Source of the DNA: Oceanispirochaeta sp. | GTDB taxonomy: Bacteria; Spirochaetota; Spirochaetia; DSM-2461 | Direction: 5' to 3' | Length of the DNA stretch: 54,642 bases | Assembly: GCF_027859075.1 (NCBI RefSeq) | Contig: NZ_JAQIBL010000094.1 | Span: forward strand, 1-54,642 | Program-made: the position numbers and the translations under genes | Shown here: positions 19,593-28,091 of the stretch, in pieces | Layout: every line of letters begins with the position of its first letter | Numbering within the stretch: the first letter of the stretch is position 1 | Notes under the pieces: model-generated | Seen by the model: the letters and a program-made list of their open reading frames with translations, nothing else | The model's database searches: none | Told to the model about the DNA's origin: nothing

Positions 19593-20597
19593 ATGAAAAA
19601 ACTGTTTGTACTGGTTTTGTGTATGGCAGCAATGACAGGAATGGTCTTTGCTGAAGGTTCTGGTGAATATCCCGAAAGAGATATTACAAATGTTATGGTA
19701 TGGGGAGCCGGTGGTGGTACCGATACCTGCAACAGAGTAGTCATGCCCGAAATGGCCAAGGAACTGGGAGTTAACATCAATGTCGTCAACAACCCCGGTG
19801 GAGTTGCCGGTTCTGTTGGTATGGCAGCTGCATTTGCTAAGGACCCCGACGGTTACACTATCTGTGGTCTGTCCGAATCCTGTGTAACTTCAGCAGTAAT
19901 GGGCGGATTCCCTGAAAGAATGAATGTATGGGATTTCTTTATCATCGGTGGTTCACCCGACATCGTTTCTGTAACTCCCGATGCTCCCTATAACTCTATT
20001 GAAGAACTGGTTAAAGCTGCCAAAGCTAATCCCGGATCTATCAGAGCAGGTGCTTCCGGTGCCGGTTCTATTCACCACCTGAACCTTCTGGCCTTCGAAA
20101 AAGGTGCTGGTGTTGAGTTTAACTTTATTCCCTACGACGGTTCAGCCCCTGCCCAGAATGCAGCCATGACTGGAGAAATAACTCTTGTTATTACTTCTGT
20201 TGCAGAACAGGCACAGTTGATCCGTGGTGGAAAACTGAGACCTCTTGGAATGCTCGTACCTGAAGCTTTTGAACTGGGAGACACAAAGATTCCTTCTGCT
20301 TTTGATGCTTACCCCAGCATGAGCGAATTCCTGCCCATCTCTCAGGCTATCGGTTTTGCTATCCGCAAAGATGCAGATAAAAAGATCAAATCAAAACTGA
20401 CAAATGCATTTCAAGTTGCCATGAACTCTGAAGCTGTAATAGAATTCGGAAAGAAAAACTACTACATCCTCTCAGGTAAATCCGGTGCTGAAGCCAATAA
20501 AGTATTTGACAGCCTCGAATCCAACTTTGGATGGACTCTGCAAGAACTGGGAGCTGCCAAGGTAGATCCTGCTTCTCTTGGAATCCCCAAACCATAA
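19593..20597 (+). CDS. tctC: Tripartite tricarboxylate transporter substrate-binding protein TctC
   Basis: The 334-residue protein has a signal peptide (KKLFVLVLCMAAMTGMVFA) and the TctC/Bug fold, with the NNPGG loop near the start (INVVNNPGGVAGSVGM), the DGYTI motif and ASGAGSIHHLNL. Bug proteins bind carboxylates and some amides or aromatics through water-mediated contacts in that loop. It precedes tctB and tctA. Stem-loops on both sides of the gene suggest it is made in excess over the membrane subunits. Confidence 0.93.
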   Translation: MKKLFVLVLCMAAMTGMVFAEGSGEYPERDITNVMVWGAGGGTDTCNRVVMPEMAKELGVNINVVNNPGGVAGSVGMAAAFAKDPDGYTICGLSESCVTSAVMGGFPERMNVWDFFIIGGSPDIVSVTPDAPYNSIEELVKAAKANPGSIRAGASGAGSIHHLNLLAFEKGAGVEFNFIPYDGSAPAQNAAMTGEITLVITSVAEQAQLIRGGKLRPLGMLVPEAFELGDTKIPSAFDAYPSMSEFLPISQAIGFAIRKDADKKIKSKLTNAFQVAMNSEAVIEFGKKNYYILSGKSGAEANKVFDSLESNFGWTLQELGAAKVDPASLGIPKP

Positions 20598-20622
20598 TTG
20601 ATACAGTCTCAAAAAATGTTCT

Positions 20623-20686
20623 AAAAAAAAGAGCTGTTCCTGGGTGTGGAGTCCTATATAATGAGGCTCCGGGGGACAGCTTTTTT
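20623..20686 (+). terminator. Partial terminator/attenuator between tctC and tctB
   Basis: An A-run and GAGCTGTTCCTGG on the 5' side pair imperfectly with CCGGGGGACAGC and a six-T run on the 3' side, with an inner GGAG/CTCC stem. It works as a leaky terminator in principle, lowering tctB-tctA relative to tctC. It also shows that the tctB start must lie after it. Confidence 0.65.
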
Positions 20687-20714
20687 AGGACTCACAGATA
20701 AGGAAGATTTTATA

Positions 20715-21461
20715 ATGGAAGAACAAAAATTACGTCAGTATGATTTCCTGACAGCTGCATTTCTTATTTTATTCGGGATATGGGAACTCTTTGAAACATT
20801 CAAAATGCCAATGACAGACTCCTATGGAGGGGTCGAGACCGTCTGGTATGTTTCTCCGGCACTGTTTCCTCTTTTTATAGGTGCAGCCCTTATCCTCCTG
20901 GGATTTATTCTTTTGAGAAATTCTATAAAAACCGGTGGTGCAGCAGATTTCATTCATGCAATGAAAAGCATTGGTAAATCCAGAATATCGAACAAGTCCG
21001 TCCGAGTTCTGACGGTCTTGCTCGCACTTGTATCATTCGTTTATATACTGATCCCCTATATTGATTTTTTTATGAGTATTACTCTGTTTCTATTTTTTCT
21101 ATGCACTGCCTTCTATCCAGACCATGACGAATTCAGAAAGAGATTTGTCAAACATTACCTGGTGGGAATCGGGATAATTCTGATTCTGCTCATCACGGGT
21201 CTTTCAGGTGTACTGAACAGCATCCTGAAGTACAATATGGATATACTGTCTCTGATCTTCCTGATCTACCTGAATATCGTAGCTAGAAAAATGGCAAAAG
21301 GCTTTGAAATCCCCAAAAAGCTCATCCGTCAGGTGACCATAATATCATTAGTTGTACCGCTGATTCTTTGTCCTTTATTCCGATACTTCCTGCTGGTTCC
21401 CCTGCCCGTAGAAGGAGGAATCATCAAGCTGATGAACCTCGTATATTACACCATACGATAG
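20715..21461 (+). CDS. tctB: Tripartite tricarboxylate transporter small membrane subunit TctB
   Basis: The 248-residue protein has several hydrophobic segments, beginning with YDFLTAAFLILFGIWELFETF, and the general TctB layout. It is longer than typical TctB (about 150 residues), with extra C-terminal membrane segments. The ATG at 20715 has AAGGA upstream. An in-frame ATG at 20646 lies inside the attenuator hairpin and is rejected. It sits between tctC and tctA. Confidence 0.83.
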   Translation: MEEQKLRQYDFLTAAFLILFGIWELFETFKMPMTDSYGGVETVWYVSPALFPLFIGAALILLGFILLRNSIKTGGAADFIHAMKSIGKSRISNKSVRVLTVLLALVSFVYILIPYIDFFMSITLFLFFLCTAFYPDHDEFRKRFVKHYLVGIGIILILLITGLSGVLNSILKYNMDILSLIFLIYLNIVARKMAKGFEIPKKLIRQVTIISLVVPLILCPLFRYFLLVPLPVEGGIIKLMNLVYYTIR

Positions 21462-21562
21462 GTCTTTCAATTTATCGCGGTTATTTTGCTCAAGAGAGCC
21501 CCTTGGGTCACAATGAAAAATGACATCATGGGCCTTCGGAGCCTTATTAACAAGGAGATTTT

Positions 21563-23125
21563 ATGGGAGTTTTTGAACCCTTACAGATTTTTTTTATCAA
21601 CATCGGTGGGATGCTGATAAGCCCCACGATCATGCTGCTCCTCTTCTCATCGGTCATCATGGGGATTGTTTTCGGAGCGACTCCCGGTCTGACAGCCACC
21701 CTTGGAGTTGCACTGTTAACAACACTGACATACAGTATGGATACATCCACAGCCATGGTTGCCCTGATGGGAATCTATGTGGGAGGTGTCTATGGAGGTA
21801 GCTACACAGCCATTCTGGTTAATATTCCAGGAACCGCAGCATCGGCGGCTACGGCACTCGATGGTTATCCTCTGGCCTGTAAAGGCCAGGCAGGCCGTGC
21901 TCTTGGACTGACTACAACATCATCGGCTATCGGAACCTTTATCGGGATGATGTTCGTGGTGATGCTTTCACCGGTCATCTCAGCCATGGCACTTCAGTTT
22001 ACATCCTTTGAGTTCTTCCTGCTGGCCCTTTTCGGTATCGTTATCAGCGGTACCCTGACAAGCCAGGACCTGGTATACAAGGGTTGGATTGCCGGATTCT
22101 TAGGACTCTTTCTGGCTACGATCGGAAGAGATAAACTTCAATTCTATCCCCGTTTTACATTCGGGATGAGTGAACTGGAAGGCGGTCTGGACCTGGTCCC
22201 TGTATTAATCGGAGCCTTTGGAATACCCCAGATTATGAGCACCATCCGGGATAACTTTAAAATTGGAAAAACCAAAAAATTCGACAAAATTATCCCTGAT
22301 TTTAAGACAATCGCTCACAATACTCCTGCAATCATCCGTTCATCCCTGATCGGTGTTGGAATTGGATCCGTACCGGGCATCGGAGAAGATATCGCCGGAT
22401 GGGTATCCTATGGTGCCGCTAAAAAAGCAAGTAAACATCCCGAGGAATTTGGAAATGGATCTGTCGAGGCTGTTATTTCAACAGAAACAGCCAACAATTC
22501 CTGTATCGGTGGAGCAATGATCCCTCTATTGACCCTGGGTGTCCCCGGAAGTCCTCCAGCAGCCATGCTGCTGGGAGCCCTGCTGCTCCATGGAATACAG
22601 CCCGGACCCATGCTGATGATAGATCATCCCACATTCATTCTGGACATCACCGCCATTCTTCTTCTGGCCTCATTAACCATGTGGGTCTGCGGTATCCTTC
22701 TGGCCAAGCAGGTGATTAAAGTCCTGAAGATTCCTACCTCCCTTTTTATGCCTGTCATTGCAGTACTCTGTGTGATTGGTTCTTATGCTCTGGGAATACG
22801 GATCTTCAACCTCTACCTGATGCTCCCCATCGGAATCATTGCCTATTTCCTCTCAGAAATGAAGTATCCCATTGCGCCTCTGATCATCGGTGTCAGTCTG
22901 GGAGATATGTGTGACCAGAATCTGCGACGAGCCCAGATGGTATCACAGGGAAGCTTTTTACCTGTGATCACCCGCCCCGTCTCCCTGATTCTGTTCATTT
23001 TGATTCTGCTTCTCATTGCCGGTCAAATCCCGGTCTTCCAGAAACTGCAGAAACGGATAGGAAACAGAATCAACTTAATATTGAAGAAAAAATCTCCAAA
23101 AACACCGGAAGATATGAAAGACTGA
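21563..23125 (+). CDS. tctA: Tripartite tricarboxylate transporter large membrane subunit TctA
   Basis: The 520-residue protein has about twelve membrane segments and the conserved TctA signature region (GIYVGGVYGGSYTAILVNIPG, GTAASAATALDGYP), plus the late TETANNSCIGGAMIPLLTLGVPGSP motif. It forms the transport channel with TctB and uses a cation gradient. An AAGGAG site precedes the ATG. A strong terminator follows at 23148. Confidence 0.96.
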   Translation: MGVFEPLQIFFINIGGMLISPTIMLLLFSSVIMGIVFGATPGLTATLGVALLTTLTYSMDTSTAMVALMGIYVGGVYGGSYTAILVNIPGTAASAATALDGYPLACKGQAGRALGLTTTSSAIGTFIGMMFVVMLSPVISAMALQFTSFEFFLLALFGIVISGTLTSQDLVYKGWIAGFLGLFLATIGRDKLQFYPRFTFGMSELEGGLDLVPVLIGAFGIPQIMSTIRDNFKIGKTKKFDKIIPDFKTIAHNTPAIIRSSLIGVGIGSVPGIGEDIAGWVSYGAAKKASKHPEEFGNGSVEAVISTETANNSCIGGAMIPLLTLGVPGSPPAAMLLGALLLHGIQPGPMLMIDHPTFILDITAILLLASLTMWVCGILLAKQVIKVLKIPTSLFMPVIAVLCVIGSYALGIRIFNLYLMLPIGIIAYFLSEMKYPIAPLIIGVSLGDMCDQNLRRAQMVSQGSFLPVITRPVSLILFILILLLIAGQIPVFQKLQKRIGNRINLILKKKSPKTPEDMKD

Positions 23126-25819: not shown

Positions 25820-26470
25820 ATGAAAAAGATCTTGCTGCTTCTGCTCCTGGTTCTGTTCACCCTATCAATAGGTGCAAATGAAAACTGGATATATTCCGGT
25901 TTTGAATACTCAAAAATATTCGAGACCGCGAGTTTTGAAGGTATCGGATCAGAGAGGGAACTCTCTTCTATCGGAGCCAATATTTCGGGCTATTCCTTCA
26001 GTGATTTTTCCAGTGGCGGATTCTTTTTCCACTCGTCCATTCTCTTCCCCTATCATATGAAACTCACAAATGGGGACGAGGTTATCAGCCTGGGGAGAAA
26101 AGATGTGGTTTATAACTACCTCTTCAGCCTGATGGCCGGTCCCGCCTTTAAAACATCTTCCAACAGGGTGATGCAGATGTACGGCGGCCTGGGTCTTCAC
26201 GGCTCGGCTCTGCTGGTGGGCATGGGAAGTGCCTATTACGGAGAATATGTCTCTCAGAAGACCTTCAATGTCGGAGTAGGCATGGATTTGGCCGGCAAGG
26301 TCAACTTCACACCCAACTTTTACTTCTCTTTAGGGGCCATGGGAGTCTGGGATTTCTACAACTATACGGAATTGAGGGTGAACGGATATTCTGCAGAGAC
26401 CGAATTTGATAAGTTTCGTACCTTTGTCATCAACCCATTCGCCTGTTTCGGATTCAGCTGGGAATCCTGA
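25820..26470 (+). CDS. Putative outer-membrane beta-barrel protein
   Basis: The 216-residue protein has a short signal peptide (KKILLLLLLVLFTLSIGA). Its mature part has alternating hydrophobic residues and glycine/aromatic-rich strands (MQMYGGLGLHGSALLVGMG, FYFSLGAMGVWDFYNY), and ends FACFGFSWES with terminal aromatics, all typical of small outer-membrane barrels. A GGAGG site precedes the ATG. It is the last gene of the lipoprotein operon and is followed by a bidirectional terminator. Confidence 0.72.
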   Translation: MKKILLLLLLVLFTLSIGANENWIYSGFEYSKIFETASFEGIGSERELSSIGANISGYSFSDFSSGGFFFHSSILFPYHMKLTNGDEVISLGRKDVVYNYLFSLMAGPAFKTSSNRVMQMYGGLGLHGSALLVGMGSAYYGEYVSQKTFNVGVGMDLAGKVNFTPNFYFSLGAMGVWDFYNYTELRVNGYSAETEFDKFRTFVINPFACFGFSWES

Positions 26471-26481
26471 TCTGCCCGAAC

Positions 26482-26519
26482 AAAAAAAAGCTGCCCTTAT
26501 TAAAAGGCAGCTTTTTTTT
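26482..26519. terminator. Bidirectional terminator between the envelope operon and the histone gene
   Basis: AAAAAAAGCTGCC and GGCAGCTTTTTTT form a stem with A- and T-runs on both flanks, so it can end transcription from either side. Confidence 0.88.
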
Positions 26520-26554
26520 GTTGGTTAAAGATTTGATTGCACTGGAATCGCTGT

Positions 26555-26740
26555 TTAGAAGTCTTTTTCCTGAACAGTTTTTCTTTTATCATTCTTTGCT
26601 TTTTCAATAGCGGAGTCACACATTTCTCTGATTTTGTCTGAGAGAACATCAATCACTTTAGCGGAACATTTCAGATCACCATTGCTCTTGATGTAGTTTT
26701 TAACCTTAGATGATACCACCAGGGTTTCTTTTTCAGCCAT
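26555..26740 (-). CDS. Bacterial histone-fold DNA-binding protein
   Basis: The 61-residue basic protein reads as one histone fold: helix 1 (SSKVKNYIKS), a long helix 2 (VIDVLSDKIREMCDSAIEKAKND) and the short helix 3. The RKTVQEKDF end matches the RKT-x4-D signature of archaeal histones (GRKTIKAEDI). Size and sequence resemble the histones described in Bdellovibrio (Bd0055) and Leptospira. It should dimerise and bind or bend DNA. The ATG has an AAGGAG site six bases upstream and an extended -10 (TGGTAGAAT) before that. It is a monocistronic gene with its own terminator, as expected for an abundant chromatin protein. Confidence 0.88.
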   Translation of the reverse strand: MAEKETLVVSSKVKNYIKSNGDLKCSAKVIDVLSDKIREMCDSAIEKAKNDKRKTVQEKDF

Positions 26741-26772
26741 AAATTGCTCCTTATGCCAATTAGTTGAGGCCT

Positions 26773-26781
26773 ATTCTACCA
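26773..26781 (-). promoter_or_regulatory. Extended -10 promoter of the histone gene
   Basis: On the minus strand TGGTAGAAT gives an extended -10 element. No good -35 is visible at the expected distance. The histone ATG lies 32 bases downstream. Confidence 0.4.
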
Positions 26782-26888
26782 CAGGTACAGCTAGTAAATA
26801 AATAGAAAAACGCAAAGCGCTGGAAAAAAAAGCACTCTTAGAATAATATATTCCTGTTATTTCTTCTTTTTGAACCTGGAGGATCGAT

Positions 26889-28091
26889 TTGAAACAGTTT
26901 TTCCTGATTTTGATACTGGCCATTCCTATGACATTAATCCCTCTGACTGCGGAGGAAACCGGTGATACCCTGAAATGTTACCTCCTGACCGTTGGTCCGG
27001 GAAAAGAACTCTACCTCTGGTTCGGCCATACAGGGATCATCATCGAAGAGGCAGACAAGTCCCGTTTTTATGATTTTGGCAATTTTTCATTCAAGGCCGA
27101 CCATTTCTACCGGAACTTCGCCATGGGAAGACTCATATATCTGAAAATCGGAGTCTCCGCCAAGGCCTATCTGAACTACATTGTCACTGAAGACAGAGAT
27201 GTCACCCTGCAGCAGCTGAATATCTCCAGAGAGAAGATACTTGAAATGAAAGAAGAACTGGAAAGGAATACCCTTCCGGGAAATAATACCTACCTGTATC
27301 ACCATTATCTGGATAATTGCTCCACCCGTCCCCGGGATATAATTGACAAGGTCCTGGATGGGCAATTGAAAGAGGCCACCAACCGGAAGGCAGACGCCAG
27401 CTTCCGCAGCAGCTTCAGGCGCTTTACCAGTCATAGCTTCTTTCCCGACTGGCTGCTGTCCCTTCTTCAGGGTAGAACCATAGACGGCCCCATAACCTAC
27501 TGGGACACAATGTTCCTGCCGGATGAACTGATGAAGCATCTGGACACACTGATGGTTACAAGCGATGAGGGCCTTGAAGCGGCAGTTCAGAATAAAAAGA
27601 TTCTGGCAAAATCCTCACAGGGCAGAACCATTCCGGCCCAGCCTCCCCTCTCGGGAGTACCCGCTCTATTGTATGGTCTGGCCGCCGGGTTCATCCTGAT
27701 GATGCTTCAAAGGTTCTCTTTAGAACGCAAGGGGAAAGCCGCCCGCAGTGCCGCTCTCCTGTTCTTCCTGATTCTCACAGTGATCAGCCTCTTCGGCCTG
27801 ATTGTATGGTTTATCTCTTTCTTCACTGACCATCTGGTGGCCCGTCAGAACATCAACGTCATGATGTTTCATCCCCTGTATCTTGTTCCAGGGTTTTTCC
27901 TGCTGAAACAGTCGGGGAAGAGACTCTTAAGATTCTGGCAGATTCAGGGAGGAGTCTGGATCCTGATGGTAATTATGAATACAGCATTTTTTCATCAAGA
28001 GAACCTGATAACAGTCCTGTTCTTTCTCCCCTTCCTGGCCTGCCAGCTCTTTATTCTGAAAAAGCCGACTTATTCAACCCAGCCGGCCTGA
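26889..28091 (+). CDS. DUF4105 (Lnb-type) membrane protein, possible lipoprotein N-acyltransferase
   Basis: The 400-residue protein has an N-terminal signal/anchor, a DUF4105 domain with WFGHTGI (His) and HHYLDNCSTRPRD (Cys) as the likely papain-like catalytic pair, and four hydrophobic segments in the C-terminal third (from about residue 255). DUF4105 proteins of Bacteroides have been shown to N-acylate lipoproteins (Lnb). Whether this one does the same or another envelope reaction is inference. It starts with TTG at 26889, six bases after GGAGG. The lipoprotein operon lies just upstream on the same strand, beyond the histone gene. Confidence 0.8.
   Translation: MKQFFLILILAIPMTLIPLTAEETGDTLKCYLLTVGPGKELYLWFGHTGIIIEEADKSRFYDFGNFSFKADHFYRNFAMGRLIYLKIGVSAKAYLNYIVTEDRDVTLQQLNISREKILEMKEELERNTLPGNNTYLYHHYLDNCSTRPRDIIDKVLDGQLKEATNRKADASFRSSFRRFTSHSFFPDWLLSLLQGRTIDGPITYWDTMFLPDELMKHLDTLMVTSDEGLEAAVQNKKILAKSSQGRTIPAQPPLSGVPALLYGLAAGFILMMLQRFSLERKGKAARSAALLFFLILTVISLFGLIVWFISFFTDHLVARQNINVMMFHPLYLVPGFFLLKQSGKRLLRFWQIQGGVWILMVIMNTAFFHQENLITVLFFLPFLACQLFILKKPTYSTQPA

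Follow-up and report, generated by a model that had tools for sequence, protein, structure and literature searches.

A small histone of predicted bacterial-dimer (HBb) type in an uncultured spirochaete

A stretch of 54,642 nucleotides from Oceanispirochaeta sp. (contig NZ_JAQIBL010000094.1, positions 1 to 54,642), referred to here as the window, carries a real, strongly conserved gene for a small histone of an uncultured spirochaete. By its diagnostic residues, the product is assigned to the alpha3-truncated bacterial-dimer class, the type represented by HBb (Bd0055) of Bdellovibrio bacteriovorus, and not to the tetrameric class of Leptospira. We hold it quite probable that this bacterial-dimer histone acts as an abundant nucleoid-associated protein. 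By analogy with HBb, its likely role would be that of a non-specific DNA-bending protein working alongside HU.

Identification and conservation of the histone gene

An earlier note on this DNA, made from the sequence alone, had described a bacterial histone in a spirochaete with a transcription unit of its own, and that description is supported by Pfam, phmmer, the predicted fold, and the features of the gene unit (Table 1). The ORF lies where the note placed it, initiates with ATG on the minus strand at 26555-26740, and encodes the 61-residue protein MAEKETLVVSSKVKNYIKSNGDLKCSAKVIDVLSDKIREMCDSAIEKAKNDKRKTVQEKDF. Residues 29-60 match Pfam family PF00808 (CBF/NF-Y and archaeal histone) at 22.1 bits, against a curated cut-off of 21.4, and this is the sole PF00808 match of the genome. 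The NCBIfam archaeal histone model scores the protein at 25.4, under its cut-off of 50. Among proteins of solved structure, phmmer ranks Bd0055/HBb of Bdellovibrio best (8fvx, 8cmp; E 1.3e-11), followed by HLp of Leptospira perolatii (9qt0; E 2.5e-10), with HTkC also found (9f2c; E 3.6e-4) and archaeal histone A showing marginal similarity (E 0.2). The RKT...D signature that the note had read in the sequence is present as R53, K54, T55, and D60, all four invariant in a 57-row alignment in which M1, L7, S11, K12, K14, I17, L33, S34, and A48 are invariant as well.

Table 1. Features of the histone gene unit and its divergent neighbor, in window coordinates.
Feature	Position	Strand	Evidence
Histone CDS, 61 aa, predicted bacterial-dimer (HBb) type	26555..26740	-	ORF, Pfam, phmmer, alignment, dN/dS, Foldseek
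Shine-Dalgarno AAGGAG, 6 nt before ATG	26747..26752	-	Sequence; invariant in 6 genus species
Extended -10 element TGGTAGAAT (TG, one base, TAGAAT)	26773..26781	-	Sequence; TGRTAGAAT in 6/6 genus species
Conserved AT tract TCTATTTATTT at about -35, without a good match to the -35 consensus	26796..26806	-	10/11 bases invariant in 6 genus species
Bidirectional intrinsic terminator common to two convergent genes	about 26480..26521	.	Fold -30 kcal/mol, z -7.9
Lnb-like membrane protein gene (PF13387 + PF25221), divergent from histone gene	26889..28091	+	Domains; pairing in relatives

The gene is under strong purifying selection, with pairwise dN/dS values of 0.015-0.055 at dS 0.4-1.0 within the genus. 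The genome collection contains 60 loci encoding relatives, from 97% down to about 49% identical, and the closest of these all carry Spirochaetales or Spirochaetaceae labels. Of 25 genomes sampled from the family to which the window belongs, 24 have the histone, and the one exception is a genome 77% complete. A search of phage sequences found no histone homologue, and a search of plasmids found just distant archaeal proteins annotated DUF1931, at 34.5% identity. One histone of bacterial-dimer type, 68% identical, sits on a contig labeled Nitrosovibrio (Pseudomonadota; L048:4983-5183), as a result of either horizontal transfer or mis-binning of that contig.

Predicted fold and assignment to the bacterial-dimer class

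An AlphaFold2 monomer model built on the 57-row alignment is of moderate confidence only (mean pLDDT 80.8, pTM 0.56). It places helices at residues 5-21 and 27-50 and has no alpha3 of four residues or more; the chain terminates one residue past D60. A Foldseek search of the PDB returns HBb first (8fvx, TM 0.77, E 4.3e-4), then HLp, with a TM-score similar to that of HBb, then HTkC, and then eukaryotic histones. The earlier note had said that a prediction lacking the histone fold would count against it; the monomer model does contain that fold, with HBb, HLp, and HTkC its best PDB matches. Its description of a complete single histone fold holds in part: a histone fold is predicted, but, as in HBb, alpha3 is cut short. 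This truncation, together with the shortened alpha2, agrees with the published definition of alpha3-truncated histones (PMC11390915). Archaeal nucleosomal histones are defined by full-length alpha2 and alpha3 and a four-helix-bundle tetramer interface, and here alpha3 is truncated. The window histone shares the histone fold and the RKT...D loop with proteins of the HMfA/HMfB type, but differs from them in its shorter alpha2, its one-turn alpha3, and its marginal sequence similarity.

The question of class then lies between HBb and the face-to-face (FtF) histones, such as HLp and HTkC. Structures and simulations of HBb identify its DNA contacts as T8, S9, K10, K12, K16, N22, T23, S24, K52, T53, and R57 (PMC11317129). 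The alignment with HBb is gap-free, and a window residue number equals the HBb number plus two, so that the corresponding residues are S10, S11, K12, K14, K18, K24, C25, S26, K54, T55, and K59. Apart from the changes of N22 to K24 and T23 to C25, both in the DNA-contacting loop, every contact residue is kept or conservatively replaced; S11, K12, K14, and T55 are invariant across 73 rows. The RD clamp, R53-D60, is retained, and D51 corresponds to HBb D49, a residue that adds to the clamp. With HBb (PDB 8FVX, 8CMP, 9EZZ, 9F0E) the window histone thus shares its length, the truncated alpha3, the short alpha2, the RKT...D motif, the D-R-D salt-bridge residues, nearly all DNA-contact residues, and a Cys in alpha2; the two differ in that 29 of 56 aligned residues are identical (52%), and in that HBb N22-T23 of loop L1, R57, and I59 are K24-C25, K59, and F61.

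FtF histones tetramerize through residues R49, N53, and R55 in HLp numbering (PMC12701072). These correspond to K47, D51, and R53 in the window histone, so that R55 alone is kept. Features expected of the bacterial-dimer class are all present, namely the RKTxxxxD motif (R53, K54, T55, D60), the alpha1 lysines (K12, K14, K18), and residues other than the FtF dimer-dimer Arg and Asn in late alpha2 (K47, D51). With two of the three FtF tetramer residues missing and HBb D49 conserved as D51, the histone is assigned to the bacterial-dimer class. HLp and the histone of L. interrogans (FtF, PDB 9QT0) share with it the phylum, the alpha3-truncated fold, and the RD clamp, but differ at R49 and N53. The likeness to both Bdellovibrio and Leptospira histones claimed in the earlier note is real, since both are matched, but the classes differ and Bd0055/HBb is the closer.

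The class itself is not new, although the earlier note had implied novelty. Schwab et al. defined bacterial-dimer histones in 2024 and listed class Spirochaetia of the Spirochaetota among the main holders (PMC11390915), and a NAR 2024 paper reported the HBb contact residues conserved in Spirochaetota (PMC11317129); the class of the window histone was therefore already known.

A lineage-specific cysteine

Two cysteines occur in the protein, and the earlier note had suggested that they might make extra contacts. Cys41 corresponds to HBb C39, and 64 of 73 sequences have Cys at this position. Cys25 (codon 26666-26668) aligns with HBb T23, the DNA-contacting L1 position, where the 73 histones compared have Cys (47), Thr (23), or Val (3), and within this set Cys is confined to spirochaetes. 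Judged from these sequences, Cys25 marks a Spirochaetia lineage, a detail new here. The residue changes six times on a gene tree that is built from 61 columns and poorly resolved, and one origin is still compatible with that tree. A Spirochaetia-specific variant in which the Cys that replaces the L1 contact Thr would let oxidation, metal binding, or cross-linking of its thiol tune DNA binding seems to us highly improbable.

Gene unit and neighborhood

The stand-alone unit with an extended -10 and a strong ribosome site that had been claimed was found; both elements are conserved across the six genus species aligned, and the ribosome site forms an invariant block in that upstream alignment. The AT tract TCTATTTATTT putatively takes a role at the -35 position. 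The histone promoter was missed by a scan for consensus promoters, since it lacks a good -35 at the usual distance. The terminator that the earlier note had described proved to be bidirectional: the hairpin is flanked on either side by A and T tracts and terminates both the histone gene and its convergent neighbor at 25820-26470. Relatives also have a hairpin and T-run 3' of the histone gene. Within the window, Rfam and tRNA scans gave no matches.

Scored with the window ORFs as background, the synonymous codons of the histone gene give a log2 odds of 0.14. None of the 26 other ORFs of the window that were tested scores as high (-0.35 to 0.13; null p 0.0002), and the value falls within the range of the S10-operon ribosomal proteins encoded in this genome (-0.07 to 0.18). 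Such ribosomal-protein-like codon usage agrees with high expression.

In most of the nearest relatives the histone gene is paired with the Lnb-like gene, usually followed by genes for an M16 (M16/PreP-like) peptidase and a rhodanese. Elsewhere in the window, a complete tripartite tricarboxylate transporter, TctC-TctB-TctA, is encoded at 19593-23125 (+).

Histone and HU across the phylum

Sampling of 392 genomes of the phylum found 43 with a histone matching the histone profile used and 371 with an HU-family domain. Because FtF-type sequences (L099, for example) match the profile too, the 43 carriers are a mixture of both histone classes. All 18 sampled histone carriers of class Spirochaetia have HU-family domains, a detail new here, and the window genome has eight HU/IHF-family domains. 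Several of the latter occur in adjacent pairs, some within open frames of roughly 300-400 codons (G000:C345, C346, C112). Leptospira, by comparison, is reported to lack HU (PMC12701072). Given the eight domains of the window genome, the window histone is more probably a partner of HU than a substitute for it. Four genomes of the phylum outside class Spirochaetia have a histone but no detected HU-family domain (G121, G125 with histone L098, G133 with histone L096, and G137), and are candidates for histone-only nucleoids.

Proposed role and alternatives

By analogy with HBb, two chains would pair head-to-tail through helix alpha2. The dimer would grip the DNA backbone with the start of alpha1 (S10, S11, K12, K14, K18) and with paired loops L1 (K24-A27) and L2 (K54 and T55, with K59), and would bend DNA without sequence preference, beside HU. 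Counted against this explanation are the replacement of both L1 residues, HBb N22 and T23, and the moderate confidence of the monomer model. Models of HBb itself disagree in the literature, DNA bending being proposed as against end-on coating (PMC11390915, PMC11317129). The histone may also be a minor partner, given the eight HU/IHF-family domains.

That the protein is instead a tetrameric FtF histone, wrapping about 60 bp of DNA in the manner of Leptospira HLp, would be suggested by the shared phylum, by the rank of HLp as second-best solved relative, and by its similar TM-score, but we regard this as unlikely, since R49 and N53 have become K47 and D51, HBb D49 is retained, and HBb outscores HLp by sequence. 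Leptospira-type identity was rejected on the diagnostic residues K47 and D51. A local or regulatory function, directed at the divergent Lnb-like envelope gene or at redox sensing through Cys25, would fit the gene pairing in most nearest relatives, the lineage specificity of Cys25, and a genome whose eight HU/IHF domains might already suffice for packaging. We consider such a function very unlikely in place of a general nucleoid role: the conserved residues are those that in HBb touch the DNA backbone, not bases; codon usage is of ribosomal type; and the Lnb-like neighbor was undetected beside the histone in many more distant carriers. The source assembly, in 364 contigs with an estimated 2% contamination, gives some reason to think of a contaminant or a chance ORF, a reading of negligible probability. 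The gene and its promoter recur in all five other sampled species of the genus, one of them a 4.01-Mb single-contig genome, its neighbors are unchanged in the three genus species checked, and dN/dS is far below 1; contamination and chance are ruled out on these grounds.

The bacterial-dimer histone of this clade provides a well-conserved third test case, a bending-type histone beside HU, in the phylum of Leptospira, which is reported to have a wrapping-type histone and no HU (PMC12701072). The clade thereby offers a way to study the division of labor between histones and HU, and the substitution of one for the other.
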